Part shown: positions 31,688-52,540 of the stretch, one piece after another
Numbering within the stretch: the first letter of the stretch is position 1
Layout of the letters: each line of letters opens with the position of its first letter
Assembly: GCF_002285795.1 (NCBI RefSeq)
Contig: NZ_CP022961.1
Span: forward strand, 1,860,001-1,924,000
DNA from: Plantactinospora sp. KBS50
Lineage (GTDB): Bacteria; Actinomycetota; Actinomycetes; Mycobacteriales; Micromonosporaceae
Reading direction: 5' to 3'
DNA: 64,000 bases
Position numbers and translations under genes: made by a program
The notes under the pieces: model-generated
What the model was told of the DNA's origin: nothing
The model's input: only the letters and a program-made list of their open reading frames with translations
Databases searched by the model: none

Positions 31688-31918
31688 GGACCTTGCCCGG
31701 CCGCGGGCGTCGCCCGTGCCGACGTCACCCTGAGTGGTGGCGTCACCGGTTCACCACGGGTCGTGAAAATGGGTCCGATCATTGCCGCTGGGTGCGGAGA
31801 ACGCCATCTTTCCGCGCCCGGTCGCAGACCCTAGCGTTGCGGGAAACGCGGCGGTGCCGTGCCCGGCGCCCGGCCGGTGCGGCCGCCGCGTCCGGTGTGC
31901 AGGCGTGAGGCGGTGGCA

Positions 31919-32863
31919 ATGGTGTGGCGCAGGCCGGTCCGGCTGATGGCCGTGCTGATCGCGGTCGGCATCGGGCTCGGCATCGGGCTCGGCATCGGGC
32001 TCGGCGTCGCCGGGGCGCCGACCGCGGCGCGGGCCGCGGTCGGGGACAGCGTCCGGATCGAGGCGCCGCGGTTCGCCGCCGGCAGCACCAGCACGGTGGC
32101 CGCGGTGGCCGCCACCACGGCGGCCGGCGACTGCCGCCGGGTGCGCTGGTCGCTGCTGCTGCGGGTGACCGGCATGCGGCTGGACCAGGTCCAGGTGCAG
32201 CGGTTCGAGGACGACGGGGACTTCCCGGTCCAGACCCGCGCCGACGGCAACTCGCTGCGGCTGACCGACCAGCAACCGGACCCCGGGGCGCTCTGCCGGG
32301 GACGTACCGTCACCGCCCGTTACCGGCTGGCCTTCGCGCCGGACATCGCGAACGGGCGGGTCACCCTCCAGGCGGAGGCGTCCGACGGCAGCCAACAACC
32401 CGTCGGCCGGGCCGCGGTGACCCGGGACGTACCGGGATCGGGCCTCGCCGCGCCGGCCCCGTCGGTCCCGTCCGCCACGCCGGCGGCGACCGCGGCGGCC
32501 ACCACCGCGCCGGCCGCGACCGCCAGCACCGGCTCCCCGACACCGACGCCGTCCCAGGAGTACGCGACCGACCTGCCCCTGGACGAGCCCGAGGAGACGG
32601 ACGAGACCCCCGCGGCGGCCGAGGTCGACAGCGGTACCGGCGCGGGCGGTTCCACCCCGAAAGCGGCCGGCTTCAGCGGCGTACAGGCGTCCTTCGTCTT
32701 CGGCGGTCTGCTGCTGGTGCTCGGCCTCGGCCTGTTGCTCGGGTTGCGGCGGCTGATCAGCACGGACCGGGCCGCCGCCGATTCCGGGCTGGCCGGGGCG
32801 GGCGCGACCGGCGGGGTGCCGGCTCGCAACCGGCAGCGGCGCCGCCGCAGCGACGTCTGGTAG
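31919..32863 (+). CDS. Secreted, C-terminally anchored hypothetical protein
   Basis: 314 residues from the ATG at 31919 (MVWRRPVRLMAVLIAVG); an earlier Met at 31859 is possible. The signal peptide contains a GIGL repeat encoded by 12-bp units. The mature domain has two Cys (GDCRRVRW and GALCRGRT) and beta-rich sequence. An Ala/Thr/Pro stalk, an acidic stretch (LPLDEPEETDET), a membrane helix (FVFGGLLLVLGLGLLLGL) and a basic tail RRRRSDVW follow. The layout is that of a wall-spanning surface protein. No family recognised. Confidence 0.7.
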   Translation: MVWRRPVRLMAVLIAVGIGLGIGLGIGLGVAGAPTAARAAVGDSVRIEAPRFAAGSTSTVAAVAATTAAGDCRRVRWSLLLRVTGMRLDQVQVQRFEDDGDFPVQTRADGNSLRLTDQQPDPGALCRGRTVTARYRLAFAPDIANGRVTLQAEASDGSQQPVGRAAVTRDVPGSGLAAPAPSVPSATPAATAAATTAPAATASTGSPTPTPSQEYATDLPLDEPEETDETPAAAEVDSGTGAGGSTPKAAGFSGVQASFVFGGLLLVLGLGLLLGLRRLISTDRAAADSGLAGAGATGGVPARNRQRRRRSDVW

Positions 32864-32904: not shown

Positions 32905-35415
32905 CTAGGACAGCTCGCGCTTGAGCGCCGTCGCCAGACGTGGGGCGAGGGTACGGGCGTAGGTGGCGGTCAGGCCGCCGCCACTGCCGTAGACGAGGGT
33001 CTCGCCGATCACCGGGGCACACCGGGACGTCGGGCAGATCGCGTCGTTCAGGTCGATCATGCTGACGTGCCGCAACCCGCTCGCCGCCCGCTCCTGCGCC
33101 TCGCCCGCGCCGGACCCCAGCGCCGTCGTGCGCGAGGTGGTGCACCGGGTCAACCGCCGCGTGTTCTCCCCCACACACTCCGGTACGTCGATCGACGGGG
33201 TCGGCGTGTCGCGGAGCACGACAAGCGGCCTCTTCTCGGTCGCCAGGGCGGACCACATCCGGTGCTGCCCGTCCGCCGCGGCCCGCACGGCACGGTCCCC
33301 GGTCAGCGTCCGGCCGTCGACCACCGGCGTGAACCGGGCGTTGGTGGTGATGACAAGCGACGGCCGGTCCCCGGGCAGGGCGGCCCGCACCTTCCCGTTC
33401 CACTCCGTGCACTCCGGGTACGCCCGATCGGCGTCCGTGGCGCCGGCCCGCGCCACCGAACCCAGGGTGAGCGGGCAACCCTCCTTCAGGTACGTCACCA
33501 GGCGCCAGCCGTTGGTCCGGATCACCTCCTGGAGCGCGGGCAGCCAGGCGGCGGCCCGCGCGTCGCCGACCAGCGCCACCGTGAACGTCGCCTCCCGGTC
33601 GCCGTACCCGCAGGACGCCGCCGCGCCCTCGGCCATCGGCGCCACGCAGTCGTGCCGGTAGGCGTCCGAGACGTCGGCCCGGGCGGAGCCGGGCTCCGGA
33701 ACGATCCTCGCCACCCGGTCGACCGGGGTGCCGTGCCGGTCGTTGCGCGGCTTGCTGCCCAGCACCGCCGCGCCGGGCGGCGCGTCGGCGTCCGGCCCCG
33801 CCGGGTCGTCGCCGTCCGCACCGACCGATGTGGACACGCTGGGACTCGCCGAGCCGGCCGGCAGCACCGCCGAGGTGGGCAACGTCGCCGAGGTCGACGG
33901 CCAGAGCGCAAACTGGAACAGCAGCCCCGCCGCGGCGGCCACGCTGGTGCAGACCGCACCCAGGTGCAGCGCGCTGTGCGGCTGCTCGACCAGCACCGGC
34001 GACCGGCGGACCGGGTTCTCGACGTACCGGTGGGTCAACATGGCGGGTACGACCGCGGCCAGCACCACGGCCAGCGAGGCGACCGGGCCGAGCGGGCCGA
34101 ACAGGACGCCGGCCACGACGAGCAGCGGCCAGTGCCACAGGTAGAGCGGGTACGCGATGGCGCCCAGCTCGCGCAGCGGGCGCCGCCGCAGCAGCAGCGC
34201 CGGACCGCCGGCACCGATCCGCCCACCGCCGGCACCGATCCGCCCACCGCCGGCACCGCCCGACCCGCCGGCGCCTGCTGTTCCGCCGCCGGCGAGCAGG
34301 GCCGCGGTGCCCAGCGCGGGCACCAGTGCCGGCCAGCCGGCGAAGCCGTCGGTGCCGCCGAGGGCGCCCGCCAGCGGTACGGCCGCGACCACCGCGGCCA
34401 GTCCCGCCCAGGCCAGTGCCGTGGCCGCGGTCCGGGACAGCCGTCCGAGCCAGGTGCCGAGCAGCGCCACGCCGCCGCCGAGGGCCAACTCCCAGAACCG
34501 GGCGGTGCTGGCCAGGTACGCCCGCGCCGGCTCGCTCGCGGCCAGCGACACGGACCAACCGAACGAGGCCACCGCCACCACGCCCAGACCGATCAGCATG
34601 CGGATCTGCCACAGCCGCGGGCCGGCGGTGAACCGGCCCGCGCCGAGCAGGGCCAGCGCCAGCACCAGCGGCCAGATCAGGTACGCCTGCTCGGCCACCC
34701 CGAGCGCCCAGTAGTGGCGCAGAATGCTCGGATCGCCGGTCGGATCCTGCCCGGCGAGGCGCCAGTTCAACACGTACAGGCCGGCGGCCATCGCGTCCCA
34801 CCCGGTGCCCGACCAGCGCTCCCGGGGCAGGAACAGCCCGGTCAGCAGCAGGCTCACCAGCAGCACCAGCAGTGCGGCGGGCAGCAGCCGGCGCGCCCGG
34901 CGCGCGTAGAACGCCAGCGGGTCGATCCGACCCGCCCGCTCCAGGTCGCTGGCCAGGACACCGGTGACCAGGAAGCCGGAGACCACGAAGAAGACGTCGA
35001 GTCCGACGAACCCGCCCGGCAGCAGGCTCGGCGCCGCGGCACCGACCAGAATCACCAGGACGGCGAGCCCCCGCAGGCCCTCGATGTCGGCGCGGAAGCC
35101 GAAGTGGAGACCGAAGCCGTTCGGACGGTCCGCCTCGTCGGGACTGTCCGGTCCGGCCGAGGTGGCGGTGCTGGTCGCGGCGGTGCTGGTCGTGGCGGTG
35201 CCGGTCGTGGCGGTGCTGGTCATGGCGCGCAGGTCGGGTCGGTCGGCCCGCCATCCCGGCTCGCCGGGCTCGGTGTCCGGCCCGGGCTCGGTGTCCGGCC
35301 CTGGCTGGGTGTCCGGCCCGGCCTGGCCGTCAGATCCGGTCTGGTCACCGGGTCCGGTCGGGGCGCCGGGCTCGTGCCGGTCGCCGGGTCCGGTCCGGGA
35401 ATCCAGTCGTTTCAT
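32905..35415 (-). CDS. Acyltransferase-3/SGNH fusion membrane protein lacking catalytic residues
   Basis: 836 residues. A long low-complexity N terminus (TEPGPDTEPG and TSTATT-type repeats) precedes the acyltransferase-3 domain (FRADIEGLRGLAVLVILVG, GGFVGLDVFFVVSGFLVTG, WALGVAEQAYLIWPLVL, about ten membrane helices). An exported SGNH-type domain follows. Proteins of this type O-acylate surface polysaccharides. Two active sites are altered. The His ten residues after the GLR arginine (R-x10-H) is Ala. In the SGNH domain the usual G-D-S-H-A block reads VGDARAAAW, and the C-terminal D-x-x-H before LTATYA reads GSGGG. It may be a pseudoenzyme with a scaffold or transport role. The start could also be downstream, for example at the Met of MTSTATT. 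Confidence 0.85.
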   Translation of the reverse strand: MKRLDSRTGPGDRHEPGAPTGPGDQTGSDGQAGPDTQPGPDTEPGPDTEPGEPGWRADRPDLRAMTSTATTGTATTSTAATSTATSAGPDSPDEADRPNGFGLHFGFRADIEGLRGLAVLVILVGAAAPSLLPGGFVGLDVFFVVSGFLVTGVLASDLERAGRIDPLAFYARRARRLLPAALLVLLVSLLLTGLFLPRERWSGTGWDAMAAGLYVLNWRLAGQDPTGDPSILRHYWALGVAEQAYLIWPLVLALALLGAGRFTAGPRLWQIRMLIGLGVVAVASFGWSVSLAASEPARAYLASTARFWELALGGGVALLGTWLGRLSRTAATALAWAGLAAVVAAVPLAGALGGTDGFAGWPALVPALGTAALLAGGGTAGAGGSGGAGGGRIGAGGGRIGAGGPALLLRRRPLRELGAIAYPLYLWHWPLLVVAGVLFGPLGPVASLAVVLAAVVPAMLTHRYVENPVRRSPVLVEQPHSALHLGAVCTSVAAAAGLLFQFALWPSTSATLPTSAVLPAGSASPSVSTSVGADGDDPAGPDADAPPGAAVLGSKPRNDRHGTPVDRVARIVPEPGSARADVSDAYRHDCVAPMAEGAAASCGYGDREATFTVALVGDARAAAWLPALQEVIRTNGWRLVTYLKEGCPLTLGSVARAGATDADRAYPECTEWNGKVRAALPGDRPSLVITTNARFTPVVDGRTLTGDRAVRAAADGQHRMWSALATEKRPLVVLRDTPTPSIDVPECVGENTRRLTRCTTSRTTALGSGAGEAQERAASGLRHVSMIDLNDAICPTSRCAPVIGETLVYGSGGGLTATYARTLAPRLATALKRELS

Positions 35416-36533: not shown

Positions 36534-36606
36534 GCGGACGTAGCGCAGCTGGTAGCGCATCACCTTGCCAAGGTGAGGGTCGCGGGTTCGAATCCCGTCG
36601 TCCGCT
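36534..36606 (+). tRNA. tRNA-Gly (anticodon GCC)
   Basis: 73 bases. The acceptor GCGGACG pairs with CGTCCGC, the D-arm region is AGCGCAGCTGGTAGCGC, the anticodon stem is CACCTTGCCAAGGTG, and the T-loop is GGTTCGAATCC. CCA is not encoded. First of three clustered tRNA genes. Confidence 0.96.
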
Positions 36607-36640
36607 CGGAGATGCCACCATGCACGTCGGGGGCAACCTC

Positions 36641-36711
36641 GGTGGAGTGGCCGAGAGGCGAGGCAACGGCCTGCAAAGCCGTGTACACGGGTTCAAATCC
36701 CGTCTCCACCT
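36641..36711 (+). tRNA. tRNA-Cys (anticodon GCA)
   Basis: 71 bases. The acceptor GGTGGAG pairs with CTCCACC, the anticodon arm is ACGGCCTGCAAAGCCGT, and the T-arm is CGGGTTCAAATCCCG. CCA is not encoded. The 34-base gap to tRNA-Gly implies a common transcript. Confidence 0.96.
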
Positions 36712-36725
36712 CGGCAACCAGACGA

Positions 36726-36797
36726 GGGCGATTGGCGCAGTGGGAGCGCGCTTCCTTGACACGGAAGAGGTCACTGGTTCAAACCCAGTATCGCCCA
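36726..36797 (+). tRNA. tRNA-Val (anticodon GAC)
   Basis: 72 bases. The acceptor GGGCGAT pairs with ATCGCCC, the anticodon arm is CTTCCTTGACACGGAAG, and the T-arm is CTGGTTCAAACCCAG. Being last in the cluster and followed by an integrase remnant, its 3-prime end is the likely attachment site of an integrated element. Confidence 0.96.
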
Positions 36798-36821
36798 CAG
36801 GTTATATAGGCAGTTGGAGCG

Positions 36822-37727: not shown

Positions 37728-38963
37728 GTGACAACTCCGCGTCCTGGCTGGGAACCTGCGTCGTACGCCGAAGCGGTCGACGACATCAACAACGGCAAGG
37801 TCTTCGAGCACCACTACCTTGAGCTGAAGACCGAGTACAAGCCCAGTCAGAACGAGGAGATGCGCGGCGACATCGCGTCCCTCGCCAACGACAGCGGCGT
37901 CCTGGTCGTCGGGGTGGAGGAGAACAAGGCGACGCGGAAGGCGACCAGGCCGACGCCGGTCCCGCTCGCCGGCATCATCGAGCGGGTGGAGGACGCCGCC
38001 CGCGCGCTTGACCCGCCGCTGCACGTCGAGTGCCACGTACTGGCTGACCCCGACGAGCAGACCCGCGGCATCGTGTTCATTCGGGTCCCGGTGAGCCCGC
38101 TCGCCCCGCACCAGGCGAACAAGCGGTACTACGGCCGCGACGAATGCTCCACGTACCGGCTGTCCGACGCCCAGGTTGAGGCGCTGATTCGTCGACGCAC
38201 CATGCGGGTTAGCCACATCGCGGCCGCGCTGTCGAGCCCGGATGTGTTCGGGGAGCTGGCGCCGACGGGACGTCTCGCGGTGGTGGCGTATCCGACGGGG
38301 AACCATAACGACGAGCTTCTGGCGGATTTTCAGGCCCCGGCCGGCTACTACCGGTGGCTCGACGAGCAGGCCGAGAAGGCAACAGCTGCCGTCGATCGGC
38401 TCGCGGATGGCGCTCCCACGCTCGGCCGATTCGTCGCGCACGCGTGGAATCCCACACGCGGATGGGCAAGCACACCCGAGCGCTGGCCCGCTGGTGTCGG
38501 CCGGATCACGCGACCGCGAAACGACGGGGAAGGCACGCGAGGTTACCTCGTCGTCTACGAGTCCGGCGCGGTGCACTTCGCGGTGGACAACCTGGTACAC
38601 CCGGAGTGGAACATCCAGCCGGCGCGCTCGGCGTTCGACTGGATGAAGATGTGGACCTCTTCGATGTGGACGGCCTGCATGGTGCGCCAGGTTTGCCGGT
38701 CGGCCGGGCTGACCGATACCGGCGTAGACATCGGCGTCCGAGTCGATGCCATCGACGGCGCACTTCCCGAAACCTTGCAGGTTGAGCAGGACACATTCAG
38801 ACGCATGGCGATACGCAATGACGTCGTGGCCTGGGAGGGAGGGACATACCAACGCACCGCCCACGTGTCCGCAGCGGAGGCGAAGAAGGACCTGACCTGC
38901 ATGGTGCGGACCCTGTTCGGCCAGCTGATGCGGTCTACAGGACTCGGCACGGTCGTGCCATAG
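37728..38963 (+). CDS. AlbA_2 (Schlafen-type) domain protein
   Basis: 411 residues from a GTG at 37728. Residues 15-160 match the AlbA_2 DNA/RNA-binding domain of PF04326: HHYLELKTEYKPSQNEEMRGDIASLANDSGVLVVGVEE, then VECHVLADPDEQTRGIVFIRVPVSPLAPHQANKRYYGRDECSTYRL in several parts. The domain is found in putative helicases, Schlafen nucleases and phage-defence proteins. The C-terminal 240 residues (AAALSSPDVFGELAPTG to the end) are not recognised. They contain Trp-rich segments and no obvious NTPase motif. First full gene of the island. A defence or regulatory role is inferred from context only. Confidence 0.7.
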   Translation: MTTPRPGWEPASYAEAVDDINNGKVFEHHYLELKTEYKPSQNEEMRGDIASLANDSGVLVVGVEENKATRKATRPTPVPLAGIIERVEDAARALDPPLHVECHVLADPDEQTRGIVFIRVPVSPLAPHQANKRYYGRDECSTYRLSDAQVEALIRRRTMRVSHIAAALSSPDVFGELAPTGRLAVVAYPTGNHNDELLADFQAPAGYYRWLDEQAEKATAAVDRLADGAPTLGRFVAHAWNPTRGWASTPERWPAGVGRITRPRNDGEGTRGYLVVYESGAVHFAVDNLVHPEWNIQPARSAFDWMKMWTSSMWTACMVRQVCRSAGLTDTGVDIGVRVDAIDGALPETLQVEQDTFRRMAIRNDVVAWEGGTYQRTAHVSAAEAKKDLTCMVRTLFGQLMRSTGLGTVVP

Positions 38964-39045
38964 CCCACACGGCCCGTCCGTCCATCGGAACGACCTGACC
39001 TACACCAGGCTGGCCGCGCTGCTGCTCGCCAACAAGCCTCCCCCG

Positions 39046-39242
39046 GTGGAACGACGCCGGATCGGCGTACCGGCGCGAGCCAGGCACGAAGACGTCACCG
39101 GAGCGCGGACCGTCGCGCAGGCCGACCAGCACGGCCAACTTCCAGTATGGCGGTCCGCGGTGATGTCACCGCCCTGCTCCGCAGCAACCAGGTAGCCGGG
39201 CCACTTCGTCGGCACGAACCGGACCGGGGCGCCGGCCGGCAA
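39046..39242 (-). pseudogene. Tn3-family transposase fragment
   Basis: Two adjacent minus-strand frames together read VRFVPTKWPGYLVAAEQGGD followed, after one missing base near 39140, by WKLAVLVGLRDGPRSGDVFV and GSRRYADPASF. The L-R-D-G-x-R-S-G-D-V-x-V-P-G-S-R-R-Y-A-D block is a hallmark of Tn3 TnpA. Similarity stops abruptly on both sides, so only about 65 residues of the roughly 1000-residue enzyme survive. The rest of 38964-39489 holds no gene I can support. Confidence 0.7.
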
Positions 39243-39489
39243 CGAGCGGTAACGTCATCGTTCTGCCGGGTCACAGCCACGGGGGCGAACGGTAGGTTAC
39301 GGACAGCCTGGCCCGGTGACGACCCGTCCGTCTGCGAGGAAGCCGATCCCACCGCCACGTTCGACTCAACCTGGCCTTACCTGGCCCGGTCACCGAGGAT
39401 CCGTGAGTAAGACGCCGTGTCGCGGGCTCCTACCGGAGCCAGTGCTTGTCCTGACCCATCAACCGGGTGGGGCCTGGGACGGCTGCCGA

Positions 39490-40785
39490 TCAAGTGTGGA
39501 GGGTGCCGGTGTGCAGGGCCAAGGCAAGGCGGGGTGCGAGGCTCCGCACCGCAGTCCTGTGGTGTGCCCGCGCAAGTTCCTGAGCGAGCCGACGGAGGTC
39601 CACGCGGATTGTGGCGGAGTCCGCACGGGCGAGGGCCTCTAGGACGGGCTCCGCCTCGAGACACGCCCGCTCGGTCTCTCCTGCGGCGGCCAACGCAAGC
39701 GCCCACCGAGCCGTGTAGCGGGCTCTTGCACGGTGCGCGTGCGCGGGGATACGACGGATCGCGGCATCGAACAGTTCGACCGCTGCTGCCGGACGTCCGA
39801 GATCATGGAGGCACCAGGCGGTCGCGAGGGTGACCGGATCCTCGACGGTTGACGTGCCGATCATGGGTTCGCCGTCTTCGCTGGGCACGTTCAGCAGGTC
39901 GCGGGCGCGGTCGAGAGCCCTCATGCAGGCGTCGTAATCACCGGCGATGGCATGTCCTTGGGCTTCACGTTGCGCGGCCAGTCCACGGATTCTGGGATTT
40001 TGCGTCTGCTCCTGGGCTAGGTGCGCAAGTTCGACGGTGCCGGGGGCATTGTGTCGATACATCGTGATCAGCGCCTGCCGGACAAGTGCGTACGCTGCGA
40101 GGTCGTGGTATCCGGCTGCCTCGGCGAGGTCGCAAGCGTGATCTGTCCACCACATCGCCGCCCCGTCGTCGCCGGCTTCTTGGGCCATCCAGCCCGTGTA
40201 CTCGGCGAAGCGCGCGGCGAGGGTGAGTATGCGATTCCGGTCGTCGGACCTCGCCTGCGGCGCCATCACTCGGAGGGCGTTAGTCTGCGCGATCAGCATA
40301 GGGATCAGTGCCGCTGGTGCGATCGTCTGTCCGAGACGGCGTGACTCCTGAAATATCGTCAGGAAGGTGGGTAAGGTTTCGCCTTCGGTGTGACGTGGGC
40401 CGGAGGTCGGCTCCAGCGTCCACGTATACACGGTGGCTACCCCGGTTGTCTGGGGGCCTTGCCGGTGCCGGCCACTGAACTCGCTGTATCCGTCGGGGCT
40501 GAGACCCATCGTCCAGACGTCCGCCGTACCCGCCGGAGGAGGCGAGGGGCTCGGCGACGCCTCCGGCGCGAGCGCGGCCAGGGCTCCACGAGCGTCCAAC
40601 TGCGCGTCGCACCTGCGCGCCAGATCCGGGCTCGGAATCTTCAATCCATTCTCGATCTTGCTGAGGTAGCTCTTGCTGTAATGAACCATCTGGCTCAGTT
40701 CCGTGAGTGACAGGCCAGCGTTGTTGCGACGTTCCCGTAACGCCCTTCCGAATGACTTTGTGTCTTTTTCGACGCTTCGAGGCAT
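39490..40785 (-). CDS. XRE-family regulator with TPR-like C-terminal region
   Basis: 431 residues. The N-terminal HTH is FGRALRERRNNAGLSLTELSQMVHYSKSYLSKIENG in two parts, the usual Cro/C1 fold of actinobacterial regulators. From residue 160 on, helical repeats (ALIPMLIAQTNALRVMAPQ, YALVRQALITMYRH, GLAAQREAQGHAIAGDYDACMRALDRA, ARYTARWALALAAAGETERA) look like TPR units that would bind a ligand or partner. Divergent from the TIR operon and separated from it by a small membrane-protein gene, so it probably regulates that system. An N-terminal fragment of a similar regulator (57851) stands divergent from the second TIR gene. Confidence 0.85.
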   Translation of the reverse strand: MPRSVEKDTKSFGRALRERRNNAGLSLTELSQMVHYSKSYLSKIENGLKIPSPDLARRCDAQLDARGALAALAPEASPSPSPPPAGTADVWTMGLSPDGYSEFSGRHRQGPQTTGVATVYTWTLEPTSGPRHTEGETLPTFLTIFQESRRLGQTIAPAALIPMLIAQTNALRVMAPQARSDDRNRILTLAARFAEYTGWMAQEAGDDGAAMWWTDHACDLAEAAGYHDLAAYALVRQALITMYRHNAPGTVELAHLAQEQTQNPRIRGLAAQREAQGHAIAGDYDACMRALDRARDLLNVPSEDGEPMIGTSTVEDPVTLATAWCLHDLGRPAAAVELFDAAIRRIPAHAHRARARYTARWALALAAAGETERACLEAEPVLEALARADSATIRVDLRRLAQELARAHHRTAVRSLAPRLALALHTGTLHT

Positions 40786-40903
40786 CTCGTCTCCCGTTGC
40801 CTAGGAAGTAACTGGCTGGGCAACAACTGTCCGCTGGCCCCGCGACGCTGCATGCTGCTATTAGCGACCTGCTGGCGTGAGCCTACAGGAGGCATTCAAC
40901 TCG

Positions 40904-41389
40904 ATGGAAGAGCTGGTGGCGGTGATCCATATCAACGATTGGACGACGATGGCGGCGAAGCTCATTGGCCTTGGCTTGATACGACGTTGTGGTGCGGTCG
41001 CTCTTGGCATCACCGCCGGCTCGGTTGCCCTATGGTGGCCCGAACTGGCATCCGCGGTCGCGTTCGGCTGGATGGCCGCAGCAGGCGCGGTCGTCGGGGC
41101 ACGACCGAGGACCGGAGGTTCCGGGATACCAGGCGGCGTGTCCCGTTTCCCTCTCTGCGGGCAACAGGCACCGGCTGGACTTCCCCCCTCTGCGAGCCGA
41201 TCATCCATAGGTGTGCCTTCGTCCGGGCAGGCTGAGCGTTGGCGCATACCCAAGTGGACGCCTGGGGGTATGTTACCGGGTGCCAATCCGCGGCCCCTGG
41301 AACAGATGCGAACCCACCTCGGGAGTAGAACGCAATGGCAAAGGTTTTTATCAGCTATCGGAACAATGACGATCCATCGGCCGCCGTGA
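40904..41389 (+). CDS. Possible small membrane protein upstream of the TIR gene
   Basis: 161 residues from the ATG at 40904, with AGGAGG 11 bases upstream (a GTG at 40877 is also in frame). Two hydrophobic stretches (about residues 15-45 and 48-70: LGITAGSVALWWPELAS, AVAFGWMAAAGAVVGA) could be membrane helices. The remainder is Pro/Arg/Ser-rich and not convincing. The frame overlaps the TIR start by 55 bases. Homology unknown; the real product may be shorter or absent. Confidence 0.35.
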   Translation: MEELVAVIHINDWTTMAAKLIGLGLIRRCGAVALGITAGSVALWWPELASAVAFGWMAAAGAVVGARPRTGGSGIPGGVSRFPLCGQQAPAGLPPSASRSSIGVPSSGQAERWRIPKWTPGGMLPGANPRPLEQMRTHLGSRTQWQRFLSAIGTMTIHRPP

Positions 41390-41925
41390 TGCTGGCTCAG
41401 AGTATTGACCAGCGACTAGGAGAGGCTGCATCCTTCCTGGATAGTAAGTCAATTCCACTCGGAGCCGATTTTCGGCCAACGCTGTGGGGTCAGCTCGCCA
41501 GATGTGTAGCGATGGTTGTCGTCATTGGTCCCAGATGGCTCGTTCCCGACGCGGATGGCGAACGCCGCGTAGATCGCACTGACGATTTCGTACGGCAGGA
41601 AATCGAATTCGCTCTCCAGATCGGACTTCCGATCATTCCTGTGCTGGTGGGCGGCGCTACGAAGCCTTCCGACGGCGTTCTGCCGGAGTCGCTCGCCGCG
41701 CTCGAGCACCGCCAGTACCTCACTCTGCGTCATCGGAGTGCGGACCGGGACCTCAGATGCCTGCTCGACCGACTCGAGGAGCTTGTCGTGGCGAGCAGCG
41801 GTCCCGGCGCCGGCGCCAAGCAGTCGGACAAACCACCTGCGGCCGGTGGTATTACCTTCAACGGCCGTGTACGAGTGGGCGGAGACATCGTCAACGGCTC
41901 CAAGTACGTGACCCGGGATGAGTGA
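41335..41925 (+). CDS. TIR-domain protein, first gene of a three-gene conflict-like operon
   Basis: 196 residues. Residues 1-150 form a bacterial TIR domain: KVFISYRNNDDPSAA, box-2-like DSKSIPLGADFRPTLWGQL, MVVVIGPRWL, and DDFVRQEIEFALQIGLPIIPVLVGG with the candidate catalytic Glu at 89 (VRQEI). Bacterial TIRs of this kind cleave NAD+ or make cADPR-type signals. After a Gly/Ala/Lys spacer the protein ends in GGITFNGRVRVGGDIVNGSKYV, a short beta motif. A variant of that motif is found near the N terminus of the next gene product. The gene overlaps the next one by eight bases. It has TIR_2-type relatives in actinobacterial NTPase-linked immunity modules; a toxic effector role is inferred. Confidence 0.88.
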   Translation: MAKVFISYRNNDDPSAAVMLAQSIDQRLGEAASFLDSKSIPLGADFRPTLWGQLARCVAMVVVIGPRWLVPDADGERRVDRTDDFVRQEIEFALQIGLPIIPVLVGGATKPSDGVLPESLAALEHRQYLTLRHRSADRDLRCLLDRLEELVVASSGPGAGAKQSDKPPAAGGITFNGRVRVGGDIVNGSKYVTRDE

Positions 41926-44152
41926 GGGGCCGGGTCCCACTGCGGACGACCCTGGACCGGACGCGGGGGCCCCAGGCCGGGAGACGGCCACCCCTGCCGG
42001 CACCGAGAACGCGGCCCCAGGCGTGGGCCGTGAGACCGGCGGCGCGGGCGGGGTGAACGGTCGCGCCGGACCGGCCGGTATGGGAACCTCGCTGGGCGAC
42101 GCGACGACGACTGACCCTGGAGGCGCGACTCGGCGTCAACAGTGGTTGGAAGAAGCTGAACGGGTGCTGATTCAGGGCGACCTGGTCGGCGGCGACAAGT
42201 ACATGATCTCTTTCGGTCGGAGCGAGACACCCGCGCGGATGCGCCGTCTGTCTCCCCTGTTGCTTGAGGCGGCCCGCGTCGCGTTCGTACCGCCCCGAGA
42301 CATGGGGAAGTTGCTGGCCGACTTCAAGGCCCGAAGCACCTCCCTCCTGCAGGCCCCGGCCGGCCACGGCAGAACGACTCTCGCAATCAGGCTGCTGCTG
42401 GAGGCAGCCCAGGACACGATCTACGTTCTGGATCCAGCCGTGGATCTCGCGCAGCTCGCCGATGCAATCGAGGTGGAACAGCGGCAGCCCGACGACCGGC
42501 TCAGGGGCGCCGGACTCGTAGTCGAGCCCGAGGCGGCGACGCCTGTCTCCGGGCGTCAACTGCGAAACCTGGACCACCTCCTCATGGAGGCTAAGGCTCG
42601 GCTCGTCATCATCGTCGGGCCCGATACCCGGCTCGCGGACGAGGAGGCGCTCGACCACCGCCTTCCAGCGTTCGACCCCCCGACGCATCGGGCAATTGTC
42701 GAGAGCCATCTGCGCTGGCGCCTCGGCTACCGGGCGGAGCAAGTGCTTGACCAGGACGGGATGGGCCCGGCCATCGACGACCTGGTGCCGCAGCTGCCGC
42801 GCAGGCGGGCAGCTACTTTCGCCGAACTCGTCCAGCGCGCCACCGAAGACGGCAAGACCAATATAACGCTCGTGCGAGACAGGATGGCGCGACGGAACGC
42901 CGACGACTTCACCATCTGGCTCGACGGGTTCACCGACCGCGAGGACATCTGCTTCGCCGTCGCGCTTGCGGTACTCGACGGGATGCCCCACCAAACGGTG
43001 ACGGAGGCGGGCAGAGTGCTGCTGTCGGAACTAGACACCACGAGAAACAAGCCGACAGACCTCAGTCGGGCCGGTGCCGGGGACCGGCTGGACGAGTTCC
43101 GCGCGTGCCAGCGGGAGGTGTATGCCCGAGACTCCTTTGGCCGCACCGTCGTCCACGCCGTCGAATATTCCGAACGGACATATCCCCGGCGCGTCATCCA
43201 GCACTTCTGGGGCCGATCCGGATTCACCGAGGCCATCACCGCCTGGTTGCTCGAACTGGCGTCGGCCAAGGAACAGCCGGAGCGCGTCCGGATTCGCGCT
43301 GCGACAGCCCTCGGGCTACTTGCCATCCAAAACTTCGACTATCTGCACCACCGCATGTTCGCCCCCTGGGCCCGGGACGACGACAACCTTCGGCGCGAGG
43401 CGGTCGCGAACGCCCTACGGGTGCCAACGACGACCGCCTCCACGGAGGCGAACGTCATGCGTCTCGTCGAGGAATGGCACGGAGGAGTCCGAGGCAGTAC
43501 GCAGACGCAGGCAACGGCGGCCCGTGCCTACGGCGTGAGCCTCGCCTCGAGCAACCCGACGTGGTTGATCGACCGGCTCGGCAGGCTTGCCGTCATCGAC
43601 AAGCACGAGGTCAGAACCTCTGTAGGACGCAGCCTCTCCGATCTCGCCGGTCGGGATGACTGCCGCCTCGCAGGCCCGATCATGATGACTCTGTGCGACT
43701 GGTTGCCCAACTACCGGCGCGAACCGGCAGCGCAGTGGGCATTCCTCGAAGCGGCACTGTCGCTGATCGCCGAGATGGGTGACGACGATCGCGGAGCGCC
43801 GAAGTTGTGGCCGGTCCTGCTCGTCCTTGCAGACCGTGACCAAGGGCTGCGGGTCAGGCTGCGTCTCTTGTGGGCAGATGCCCTAGAGTCCTGGACCTTC
43901 GGCGACGCAGCCGCCGCGGCCCTCACCGACTGGGCCGTCATGGCGGAAAAAAACCAGACGATGCGACGGGCATTCACATATCTGATCGGCGCAATACATC
44001 AGCAGTCCGAGCGGATGCAGCACATCGTACGCCATCTGGTCGAACAGTGGCACAGCCCTGATCACCTACAACCACTGACAACTACCGCGACCGCCGTCAA
44101 AGGCTACCTCGACCAGCTAGAGACTAACACCACGAACCTGGAGCAGACGTAA
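41918..44152 (+). CDS. Large P-loop NTPase with HEAT-like helical region, partner of TIR
   Basis: 744 residues (an internal Met at 55 could be the start). A Gly/Pro-rich N terminus leads to VLIQGDLVGGDKYMISFG (residues 84-100), matching the motif at the end of the TIR protein. The P-loop is LLQAPAGHGRTTLAIRLLLEA (147-153), with Arg where Lys is usual. IYVLDPAVDLAQLADAIE and ARLVIIVGPDTRLADEE follow as strand motifs (Walker B-like, without the usual DE). The region 300-740 is alpha-helical with repeat-like blocks (RIRAATALGLLAIQNFDYLHH, DDDNLRREAVANALRVP, EVRTSVGRSLSDLAGRDD), like HEAT repeats in STAND-type sensors. It overlaps TIR by eight bases and the next gene by one. A sensor/switch role is likely; the exact NTPase class is not settled. 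Confidence 0.75.
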   Translation: MSEGPGPTADDPGPDAGAPGRETATPAGTENAAPGVGRETGGAGGVNGRAGPAGMGTSLGDATTTDPGGATRRQQWLEEAERVLIQGDLVGGDKYMISFGRSETPARMRRLSPLLLEAARVAFVPPRDMGKLLADFKARSTSLLQAPAGHGRTTLAIRLLLEAAQDTIYVLDPAVDLAQLADAIEVEQRQPDDRLRGAGLVVEPEAATPVSGRQLRNLDHLLMEAKARLVIIVGPDTRLADEEALDHRLPAFDPPTHRAIVESHLRWRLGYRAEQVLDQDGMGPAIDDLVPQLPRRRAATFAELVQRATEDGKTNITLVRDRMARRNADDFTIWLDGFTDREDICFAVALAVLDGMPHQTVTEAGRVLLSELDTTRNKPTDLSRAGAGDRLDEFRACQREVYARDSFGRTVVHAVEYSERTYPRRVIQHFWGRSGFTEAITAWLLELASAKEQPERVRIRAATALGLLAIQNFDYLHHRMFAPWARDDDNLRREAVANALRVPTTTASTEANVMRLVEEWHGGVRGSTQTQATAARAYGVSLASSNPTWLIDRLGRLAVIDKHEVRTSVGRSLSDLAGRDDCRLAGPIMMTLCDWLPNYRREPAAQWAFLEAALSLIAEMGDDDRGAPKLWPVLLVLADRDQGLRVRLRLLWADALESWTFGDAAAAALTDWAVMAEKNQTMRRAFTYLIGAIHQQSERMQHIVRHLVEQWHSPDHLQPLTTTATAVKGYLDQLETNTTNLEQT

Positions 44153-45207
44153 TGGCACGTGGATTCCAGCCAATCATTCGCTCGACACCTATCGCCTGGC
44201 CCGGCTGGCAGCGTACCCCTGACTCACGACCAGGGGTGGCCATCGTGTACTCGAACGCCGCGGGCGAGGTGACCGACCCGAAGACCGTCCGCTTCACATG
44301 GAGGCGCCAGGCATCGCTATTCGCCTGGACGCGACACGAGATAGACGTGGCCGATCACCGGCGGATCGCGAAACTGGGCGGACTGGACCTGCCAACCGCA
44401 AGGCACGCCCATCATCTGGAGGCGACACTGAATATCGGATTCCGAGTGACGGATCCGGCCGAGGTGGTACGCCGCAATATCACCTATGGCGCCTCCGCGA
44501 TCCTCAACTACGTCACAGACGCGCTGAGGGCCACGGTCCGGGAATTCGAAATCGATGAGGCACACCTCGCCGAGGAGCGGTTCAACCACGAACACGCCGA
44601 CGGTATCGCCCTTCCTGAAGGAATCAGAATCTACCACGTCAGCGCACAGCTCGCCCCCGATCTCGCCGCACGTCAGTACCTGGCTGACCGCAGAGATTCG
44701 CAACGCCATAGGGAAATCGAAGCCGAGCGGCACGAGCAGGCCAAGCTCGCCACCATGCGAGCAAACGAGATCCGGAGAATCGAACATCGCGGCGAGCTGG
44801 AAAGACACAAAGAAGCCCTTTCGGCACTTCGTGGACTGGACCTGGACCCCTACCAGCTACTACTCGCGCACGTGGCCGAAAATCCGAAGGACGCGGAAGG
44901 GACCTTCGACCTCATCATGCAGGTCTGGAAGGCTGGAATCGATCGCGATGAAGCACGCGACGTGCGCTCGTCGGAGCTACTGACATATCTCATCGAGAAA
45001 GGCGTGATGCAGGCCGTCGACATCGAGCGGTTCAGGGACGAGCTGACCGATCGTATCCGTGAGGCAGTGTCACGCAAACGCCCTACCCCTGCTGGCTGGA
45101 CGGAACCTCCCGTTCTCTCGCCGGTGAAACTGGGACCCGCGAGTACGGTGCCCCCGCCCCGGCCCGGCGCCGACGGCTCGTCAGTCAACGGAACCCGAAG
45201 TCTCTGA
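44152..45207 (+). CDS. SPFH/Band-7-like protein with coiled coil
   Basis: 351 residues. The ATG shares one base with the preceding TAA. Residues 30-200 resemble an SPFH (stomatin/prohibitin) domain: beta-rich TVRFTWRRQASLFAWTRHEIDV, LEATLNIGFRVTDPAEVVRRNI, then AILNYVTDALRATVREFEI and EGIRIYHVSAQLAPDLAARQYL. A charged coiled coil follows (about 190-240: HREIEAERHEQAKLATMRAN). No signal peptide or membrane helix is evident, so it would be a cytosolic or peripheral scaffold. SPFH proteins oligomerise in rings; linking one to a TIR/NTPase pair is uncommon. The family call is by pattern only and should be treated as tentative. Confidence 0.6.
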   Translation: MARGFQPIIRSTPIAWPGWQRTPDSRPGVAIVYSNAAGEVTDPKTVRFTWRRQASLFAWTRHEIDVADHRRIAKLGGLDLPTARHAHHLEATLNIGFRVTDPAEVVRRNITYGASAILNYVTDALRATVREFEIDEAHLAEERFNHEHADGIALPEGIRIYHVSAQLAPDLAARQYLADRRDSQRHREIEAERHEQAKLATMRANEIRRIEHRGELERHKEALSALRGLDLDPYQLLLAHVAENPKDAEGTFDLIMQVWKAGIDRDEARDVRSSELLTYLIEKGVMQAVDIERFRDELTDRIREAVSRKRPTPAGWTEPPVLSPVKLGPASTVPPPRPGADGSSVNGTRSL

Positions 45208-50609: not shown

Positions 50610-52540
50610 GTGTGCCACGCGCGCGGAAGGAGATCTATGTAGGTAGATTTTCGGAAGCGGTGCTGCGTGGAAGATGAGGGTTTGGCCCCTCGGAGTCGCC
50701 CTGTGGGGGGAGGCTTCAAACCGCCACCTGCTGCGTTGGCTGAAGACCGTCGTGGTGAGCGAGGTGGAAAAGGCGCTGTTCAAGTGTCAGGTGGGGATCG
50801 AGAAGGCGTTGTGTCACAGCCTGTGAAGTGTCGAAAGGGAGAATGGTCGACATCGAAACCGGGGCATCTGATCTGCTCTGGGATGAGTCTGGCGGCTACC
50901 CACTTACTGGCCAGGTGGTGTCCGGCATATAGGCGGCGCGAGCTCGATCTGCGGCTTTCACGTGGAACGTGGGAAGGCGGAGCCGATACGGCTGTCCGGG
51001 TGATCGGGCGGCGAGAGGGAGCGTTCCGACCGGTAGCTCCGGGAGGGGCTGAGTACCGATGCGGCGACGCTGGCGGACTGGCCCGTAGTAGTGGTGAAGC
51101 TCCTGCTTGACGCGGTGGGGGTGGAGCGAAGGGGCCAGGTCATTCGTGGTTCGGAGATTCGATCAACCGGGCCCGGTTCGGGTCGGGGAGGAGTCGGGTG
51201 GCCGAGCAGCAGTCACCAGGCAAGCCGTTCGAGATCTCCAAGATGGAGGTCTGGTGGGCGTGGGAGAAGGTCAGGGACAACAAGGGTGCCGCTGGGATCG
51301 ACGGACAGTCGATCGCCGATTTTGAGCAGGATGTGCAGAACAACCTGTACAAGATCTGGAATCGGATGTCGTCGGGGAGCTACTTTCCCCCGCCGGTCAA
51401 AGCGGTGGAGATCCCCAAGGCCGGGGGCACCAGGACGTTGGGGGTGCCGTCGGTGGGGGACCGGGTAGCGCAGACCGTGGTCGCGGCGAGGCTGGAAGCG
51501 CGGATGGAGCAGATCTTCCACCGCGACTCCTACGGCTATCGTCCTGGCAGGTCGGCGCTGCAAGCAGTCGAGCGGACCAAGGAACGCTGCTGGCGGATGA
51601 ACTGGGTGGTGGACATGGACATCGCTAAGTTCTTCGACAGCGTCCCGTGGGATCTCGTGGTCAAAGCCGTGGAGGCCAACACCGACCAGCCGTGGATCAT
51701 CTTGTATGTGAAGCGGTGGCTGGCCGCGCCGATGGTCACCGCGGACGGGACCGTGATCCGTCGGGAGCGGGGAACCCCGCAGGGTTCTGCGGTATCACCC
51801 GCGCTGGCGAACCTGTTTCTGCACTACGCGCTGGATGCGTGGCTGGCACGGACGTTCCCGGACGTCGAGTTCGCCCGCTACGTCGACGACGCGGTGGTGC
51901 ACTGTCGCACCGAGGCCCGTGCCGTCCAGGTGCGGGACGCGATCGCCGAGCGGATGCGGCAGGTGGGCCTGCAACTGCATCCGGACAAGACCCGGATCGT
52001 CTACTGCCAGGACAGCAACCGGCGAGGCTCGTATGAGCACACATCGTTCACGTTCCTCGGTTTCACATTTCGGCAGCGTGGAGCACGTAACCGGCGGGGC
52101 CAGACCTTCAACGGGTTCCTACCGGCGCGCAGCGACGCGGCCCAGATGAAGATGAACGCGACGGTGCGCTCGTGGAAGCTGCACTACAAGACGAACTTGA
52201 CCCTTGCCGATCTCGCGCGCTGGATCAACCCGATCGTGCGGGGTTGGATGCAGTACTACGGAGCGTTCTACCGCTCCAAACTGCACCCGCTCCTGGAACG
52301 CATCAACGCCTACCTGATGCGCTTCCTCCGTCGGAAGCTCAAACGGCTGCGGAGCAAGAAGAAGGCCCTCCAGCACTGGCGACGAACCGTCGAGAAGCGA
52401 CGGAGCCTGTTCGCCCACTGGAGATGGGTCACCTCGCTCTCCACCGTCTGGTGATCAGGATGACAAGAGCCCGGTGAGCCGAGAGGTTCACGCCGGGATC
52501 TGTGGGAGCCGGAGGGTGAGACTCCCTCCGGCCACCCGAC
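50610..52540 (+). mobile_element. Group II intron with maturase
   Basis: The likely 5-prime end is GTGTGCC at 50610 (GUGYG rule) and the 3-prime end is CCGAC at 52540 (AY rule). A domain V-like hairpin (GAGCCCGGTGAGCCGAGAGG through CCGGGATCT, about 52466-52501) and a domain VI-like stem (GGAGCCGGAGGG with CTCCCTCCGG) follow the maturase gene. The intron lies 20 bases upstream of the IS1380 transposase and right against an inverted-repeat unit at 52542. Boundaries are inferred from rules, not from alignment. Confidence 0.8.
51198..52454 (+). CDS. ltrA: Group II intron reverse transcriptase/maturase
   Basis: 418 residues from a GTG at 51198. RT blocks: WEKVRDNKGAAGIDGQSIADFE, VKAVEIPKAGGTRTLGVPSVGDRVAQ, DSYGYRPGRSALQAVE, VVDMDIAKFFDSVPWDLV, GTPQGSAVSPALANLFLHYALD and the catalytic FARYVDDAVV. 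Domain X follows with SWKLHYKTNLTLADLARWINPIVRGWMQYYG in parts. No HNH endonuclease domain is present, as in many bacterial intron C-type maturases. It splices the intron RNA and copies it at new sites. Appears intact. Confidence 0.95.
   Translation: MAEQQSPGKPFEISKMEVWWAWEKVRDNKGAAGIDGQSIADFEQDVQNNLYKIWNRMSSGSYFPPPVKAVEIPKAGGTRTLGVPSVGDRVAQTVVAARLEARMEQIFHRDSYGYRPGRSALQAVERTKERCWRMNWVVDMDIAKFFDSVPWDLVVKAVEANTDQPWIILYVKRWLAAPMVTADGTVIRRERGTPQGSAVSPALANLFLHYALDAWLARTFPDVEFARYVDDAVVHCRTEARAVQVRDAIAERMRQVGLQLHPDKTRIVYCQDSNRRGSYEHTSFTFLGFTFRQRGARNRRGQTFNGFLPARSDAAQMKMNATVRSWKLHYKTNLTLADLARWINPIVRGWMQYYGAFYRSKLHPLLERINAYLMRFLRRKLKRLRSKKKALQHWRRTVEKRRSLFAHWRWVTSLSTVW

Follow-up and report, generated by a model that had tools for sequence, protein, structure and literature searches.

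In Plantactinospora sp. KBS50, one gene encodes a full-length membrane protein made of an acyltransferase-3 (AT3) domain joined to an SGNH domain. By descent this protein belongs to the AT3-SGNH family, and it is without that family's catalytic features. The gene lies within a stretch of 64,000 nucleotides of contig NZ_CP022961.1 that was analysed as a whole (the window). With modest confidence, we interpret its product as a conserved pseudoenzyme of the cell envelope, which would have lost its AT3 chemistry first and its SGNH triad later, and which would now act by binding or as a scaffold. Part of this loss is common to its nearest relatives, which selection still maintains; a non-enzymatic function in the envelope is therefore probable, most likely that of a binder or scaffold.

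Replaced catalytic residues in a full-length protein

A reading of the DNA made from its letters (hereafter the sequence-only reading) had described a full-length protein with intact helices and both active sites lost. Its coordinates, strand and frame were right (Table 1), and the 836-residue product matches two Pfam models above their cut-offs: Acyl_transf_3 (PF01757) with 79.7 bits (cut-off 31) and the AT3-type SGNH domain (PF19040) with 74.6 bits (cut-off 27). The three motif changes that had been named, R-x10-H to R-x10-A, GDSHA to GDARA and the loss of D-x-x-H before LTATYA, can be read directly in the translation (R115-x10-A126, G617-D-A-R-A621 and S811-G-G-G814) and hold in alignments. 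Beyond these, further near-invariant AT3 positions are changed (Q233R, S237A, E241A, F244A, T305A and S421A), such that H126, S237, E241, F244, T305 and S421, positions of the presumed former acyl-CoA site, have all become alanine. R115 of R-x10-H is kept, as are the arginines of the RXXR region (R172, R173 and R176). According to PMC7448272, the mutations H25A, S412A and H590A in OafA of Salmonella leave less than 1% of the signal, and D587A leaves 10%. Because the matching alanine mutants of OafA (His, Ser, His) fall to this level, the KBS50 protein is unlikely to be an acyltransferase of known kind.

Table 1. Positions of the AT3-SGNH gene and its features in the window
Feature	Position	Strand	Remarks
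Putative AT3-SGNH pseudoenzyme gene, 836 aa	32905..35415	-	ORF and translation; GC3 0.92-0.93
Low-complexity N-terminus, residues 1-95, three tandem-repeat arrays	35131..35415	-	
AT3 membrane domain, residues 109-460	34036..35091	-	PF01757; helices in AlphaFold2 model
Residue 126, Ala replacing catalytic His of R-x10-H	35038..35040	-	
Residues 237-241, Ala237 and Ala241 replacing near-invariant Ser and Glu	34693..34707	-	
SGNH domain, residues 598-828	32932..33624	-	PF19040; all eight near-invariant Cys columns kept
Residues 617-621, GDARA replacing GDSHA, nucleophile Ser619 to Ala	33553..33567	-	
Residues 811-814, SGGG replacing D-x-x-H, before LTATYA	32974..32985	-	

In-frame tandem repeats are present in the gene, with 21-bp units at window positions 34204-34258, in a loop of the membrane domain, and with 15- and 18-bp units at 35162-35398, in the N-terminus. 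At its contig end, the relative in L214 carries a repeat with a different sequence. A plasmid search returned 13 records, none of which covers 80% of the query.

AlphaFold2, run on residues 95-836 with 60 relatives, gave a model with a pLDDT of 89.4 and a pTM of 0.87, and the corresponding values for the intact relative L153 are 92.7 and 0.90. The alignment consisted mostly of intact relatives, and thus the model indicates a sequence that could adopt the fold and is not proof of folding; with this proviso, it agrees with the AT3 HMM match in upholding the intact helices. Below an E value of 0.001, Foldseek has a single match, which is also its best one: the OafB periplasmic domain (6se1, E 1.9e-4). 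The membrane part has its HMM match and a confident helical model, but no PDB match at E 0.001 in Foldseek, and a sequence search of the PDB with the protein returned nothing at E 0.01.

Relatives were drawn from three sources, namely a scan of genome contigs (the best 80 of at least 571 relatives), a survey of 81 genomes of the family, 44 of which matched at E 1e-15, and a survey of 300 family genomes, 65 of which matched at E 1e-38. Longer loci were taken for most matches of the 81-genome survey and for all matches of the 300-genome survey. Residue counts cover 204 distinct related ORFs, the query excluded. At position 126, 7 of the 201 relatives with a letter there have a residue other than His: the six full-length genes of a lineage from another genus (g40) and L032, which is out of register at its N-terminus. 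Eight of the 204 ORFs are without Ser at position 619, namely five g40 genes of full length, the g40 piece L214 at a contig end, L160 of genome G027 and one L227 fragment, and His is missing at position 814 in 1 of 201 (L160). The changes in the KBS50 protein therefore exceed what chance would give. The His of GDSHA (H in 165, K in 26 and other residues in 13 of the 204) and the Asp of D-x-x-H at position 811 (missing in 23 of 201) both vary among relatives, and these two are therefore weaker signs than the sequence-only reading had supposed. Loss of E241 was dropped as proof of inactivity, since Gln occupies this position in 37 of 201 relatives. Within the KBS50 genome, R-x10-H is retained by all five remaining AT3 proteins, as judged by eye from their translations.

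Several relatives depart from the common pattern in other ways. L166, L167, L259-L270 and others have GDSK for GDSH, with Ser and His kept, and most of this group have a D-x-x-H motif without its Asp (RGGSH). The AT3-SGNH copy L227 (G304:C2:2554500-2572500) is apparently split into pieces, and the second G304 copy, L228, is whole. AT3 proteins at L008:7947-10949 and G013:C1:131212-132780 seemingly carry two SGNH domains in a row.

We defined 97 near-invariant columns from 66 relatives (the 76 tree rows minus the query and nine degenerate rows); these references were unscreened for complete motifs and include one group without Asp811. Five catalytic columns (R115, H126, E241, S619 and H814) were picked by us from the motifs. 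The KBS50 protein has lost 13 of the 97 columns (V122, H126, V139, I150, Q233, S237, E241, F244, T305, P359, S421, S619 and H814), with losses at four of the five catalytic columns versus 9 of the 92 others (p 0.00095). None of the eight near-invariant cysteine columns is lost, and P359 is the sole loss among the Gly, Pro and Trp columns. The six g40 genes have lost 15 to 20 columns, and five of them attain p 0.05 for the catalytic share (p 0.19 for L158; values uncorrected for several tests). L160:7516-9672, from another genus, has lost four columns, three of them catalytic (E241A, S619P and H814N; p 0.00027), and it keeps the AT3 His and is the only PF19040 protein in its genome. The two second copies of group g10 have lost 10 and 11 columns, with p 0.43 and 0.46 for the catalytic share; they keep H126 and the SGNH triad and have lost S237, E241 and E242. 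Alanine is the replacement in 8 of the 13 lost near-invariant residues of the KBS50 protein versus 16 of 80 other conserved changes (p 0.004), a surplus that is a curiosity in a GC-rich genome and is left out of the evidence.

Descent and selective constraint

In a tree of 76 rows, the KBS50 protein groups with the six g40 genes (bootstrap 85, SH-aLRT 98), and support for this grouping is 91/90 in a tree of 31 rows with the motif regions masked. Both results are below the tool's safe limit and the KBS50 branch is long; g40 is thus to be read as a sister lineage with moderate support. The AT3 residues His126 and Glu241 are lost in all six full-length g40 genes and the SGNH Ser in five of six, with Ser, Thr, Gly or Asp at position 619 across the lineage. 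The clade also has a member that is not fully dead, the copy of G039 (L158), in which the SGNH triad is intact. At many of the AT3 acyl-CoA-site positions that are stripped in the KBS50 protein, g40 residues are mostly small, and the CoA-site arginines are not always kept (L216 is without R115 and R173, and L217 is without R176).

In a free tree, the second copies of g10 fall together with intact copies of that group (99/99), and an AU test did not reject a single clade of these copies, the KBS50 protein and g40 (p 0.157). Three independent losses are therefore likely rather than shown.

Under a codon model, the six g40 genes have an omega of 0.230 (AT3 0.249, SGNH 0.197) and three intact groups have values of 0.118, 0.067 and 0.064, such that purifying selection on g40 is weaker than on intact relatives (0.23 versus 0.06-0.12). 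A branch model, applied to 15 chosen rows on the 76-row tree topology, gave an omega of 0.171 for the KBS50 branch, 0.239 for g40, 0.259 for the g40 stem, 0.26 for the g10 second copies, 0.213 for L160 and 0.147 for the rest. An omega of 1 was rejected on the KBS50 branch (2dlnL 95.1, p 1.8e-22), for each domain of that branch (AT3 p 5.1e-12, SGNH p 3.7e-9) and within g40 (AT3 p 2.3e-54, SGNH p 1.1e-54). The test within g40 carries more weight, since none of its six genes has the AT3 His. The KBS50 branch is saturated, with about 4 neutral changes expected per codon, and late relaxation is therefore invisible on it.

These results bear on the earlier proposal that selection keeps a non-catalytic function, such as the regulation of a partner acyltransferase. 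Its first part is supported, in that the protein is full length, neutrality is rejected, the losses fall on catalytic columns and the AT3 losses are common with g40; the partner-regulator role is not. The same reading held that close homologues with all catalytic residues would speak for strain-specific decay, and here the outcome is divided: the g40 sister lineage is AT3-dead too, but intact homologues are found at up to about 53% identity. The top homologue stands at about 53% identity in a comparison where the window's genus is represented by one genome. Strain-specific decay as the sole account is set back by the AT3 loss in all six full-length g40 genes under purifying selection, with the exception of the last SGNH losses of the KBS50 protein.

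Possible roles and the surrounding locus

The starting point of the pseudoenzyme reading would be an AT3-SGNH O-acyltransferase at an old chromosomal locus. In a first step, which probably predates the split of the window's genus and g40, the membrane domain would have lost its acyl-transfer chemistry (His126, Ser237 and Glu241), and in a second step the window's lineage would have lost the whole SGNH triad too. The protein would no longer move acyl groups and would still sit in the membrane with its SGNH domain outside. There it may bind an envelope glycan via the SGNH domain, and possibly CoA via the kept R115 and R172/R173/R176, or it may serve as a scaffold. We extend this reading to the bacterial family only tentatively: its AT3-SGNH enzymes may have turned non-catalytic repeatedly, probably on three occasions and in part at a single syntenic locus, and with the acyl-CoA site stripped the protein would be a receptor, scaffold or conduit.

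Decay of the gene is an unlikely alternative. Constraint would have been weak since the death of the AT3 domain, the full loss in the window's species would be late decay, and the ORF would still be open by chance. The omega of the degenerate clade, at two to four times that of the intact groups, is consistent with this account, as is the split copy in G304. The gene also appears dispensable, as many family genomes either lack it or have it in a very diverged form (65 of 300 match at E 1e-38), and the comparison reaches homologues up to about 53% identity only. However, neutrality is rejected on the KBS50 branch (p 1.8e-22) and in g40 (p about 1e-54 per domain), structural invariants are retained while catalytic ones are lost, and the codon-position signature is strong (GC3 0.92).

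It is improbable that the protein is still an acyltransferase or esterase that works through other residues. Such altered chemistry has a parallel in GWT1, a member of the same TmAT superfamily that is an enzyme without the catalytic His (PMC12423673). Moreover, some g40 members have Ser or Thr at position 619 together with D-x-x-H, L158 has the whole SGNH triad, and Glu241 and Asp811 vary in presumably active relatives. Against this, the SGNH domain of the KBS50 protein has neither nucleophile nor base, His126 is gone, and single alanine mutants of OafA at matching sites are inactive (PMC7448272).

Genes near the KBS50 copy recur at other loci of the family. The window's aminotransferase (bioF-like), bioD-like, P450, methyltransferase and surface-protein genes recur beside the G055 copy, the P450 and methyltransferase genes at the copies of G009, G075 and G099, the surface-protein gene at those of G009 and G075, and the methyltransferase and TetR genes beside the intact copy L223. 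G075 has a same-strand tandem of two AT3-SGNH genes (L154:7852-12371), one intact and the other AT3-degenerate, and at this site G009 has an intact copy only and G055 a degenerate copy only. An operon partner was rejected, since no neighbour gene unique to degenerate copies was seen at the compared loci. An M36 peptidase gene adjoins the copies of G009, G055, G075 and L223 and is absent beside the window's copy; in two g40 loci (L156 and L214), members of its BLAST cluster are found at a greater distance.

PF19040 proteins were searched for in 12 genomes, of which 11 have a degenerate copy and the twelfth, G009, has an intact one. In six of the 11 (G000, G085, G099, G111, G127 and G027, the window's own included), no PF19040 protein was found besides the degenerate copy; the G111 copy is without Ser619, and its AT3 start lies beyond the contig end. 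A further PF19040 protein accompanies the degenerate copy in the remaining five (G039, G065, G120, G055 and G075). The regulator of a partner acyltransferase suggested by the sequence-only reading is the least probable role, since the sole PF19040 status in six of 11 genomes, the window's included, rules out a partner AT3-SGNH enzyme as a general account and no neighbour gene is common to degenerate copies alone, even though the tandem pair of G075, the further PF19040 protein in five of 11 genomes and the five other R-x10-H proteins of the window's genome, which make a partner elsewhere possible, would fit it.

Other features of the window were recorded in passing. The gene at 31859-32863 (+) encodes a protein with a signal-like start and a C-terminal membrane helix (by eye) and no Pfam match, which is 57-59% conserved over about 104 residues near the AT3-SGNH locus in three g10 genomes. 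Three tRNA genes (36534-36798) stand beside a stretch of lower GC3 (37728-45204), which contains a gene of AlbA_2/Schlafen type (37728-38960), one with an HTH (39493-40785) and one with a TIR domain (41335-41922). The last of these has a weak ThsB-like PADLOC match and is followed by ORFs of 744 and 351 residues without a Pfam or PADLOC match. This stretch is a possible tRNA-linked defence island. A reverse-transcriptase gene at 51198-52451 (+) matches the PADLOC RT model with 227 bits.

Comparison with known systems

No report of non-catalytic AT3-SGNH proteins was found among the papers listed in searches of the open-licence literature of PubMed Central. If the pseudoenzyme reading is real, the g40 series and the fully dead KBS50 protein would present a natural order of losses and could show another use of this fold in the envelope. 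A caution follows for annotation, in that not every PF01757/PF19040 protein should be labelled an O-acyltransferase.

By the description in PMC12423673, GWT1/PIGW of the TmAT superfamily is likewise without the expected catalytic His, but it is an enzyme of a different family from the KBS50 protein. The sole NCBIfam model matched is that of SucT (NF058601), over residues 91-829, and the score of 265.1 bits against a cut-off of 1275 shows that the KBS50 protein is not a member. SucT is reported (PMC10503756) to be an acetyltransferase/succinyltransferase of mycobacterial envelope glycans. L153 of G009, an intact protein from a genome of the same bacterial family, is 51% identical to the KBS50 protein, has both domains and likewise has P450, methyltransferase and surface-protein genes nearby, but unlike the KBS50 protein it has all catalytic motifs. 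OafA and OafB, the AT3-SGNH O-antigen acetyltransferases of Salmonella, have the same two-domain order, the SGNH fold matches that of OafB (6se1), and the R of R-x10-H and the RXXR region are likewise present. However, the decisive OafA residues H25, S412 and H590 (numbered as in PMC7448272) are all replaced in the KBS50 protein.
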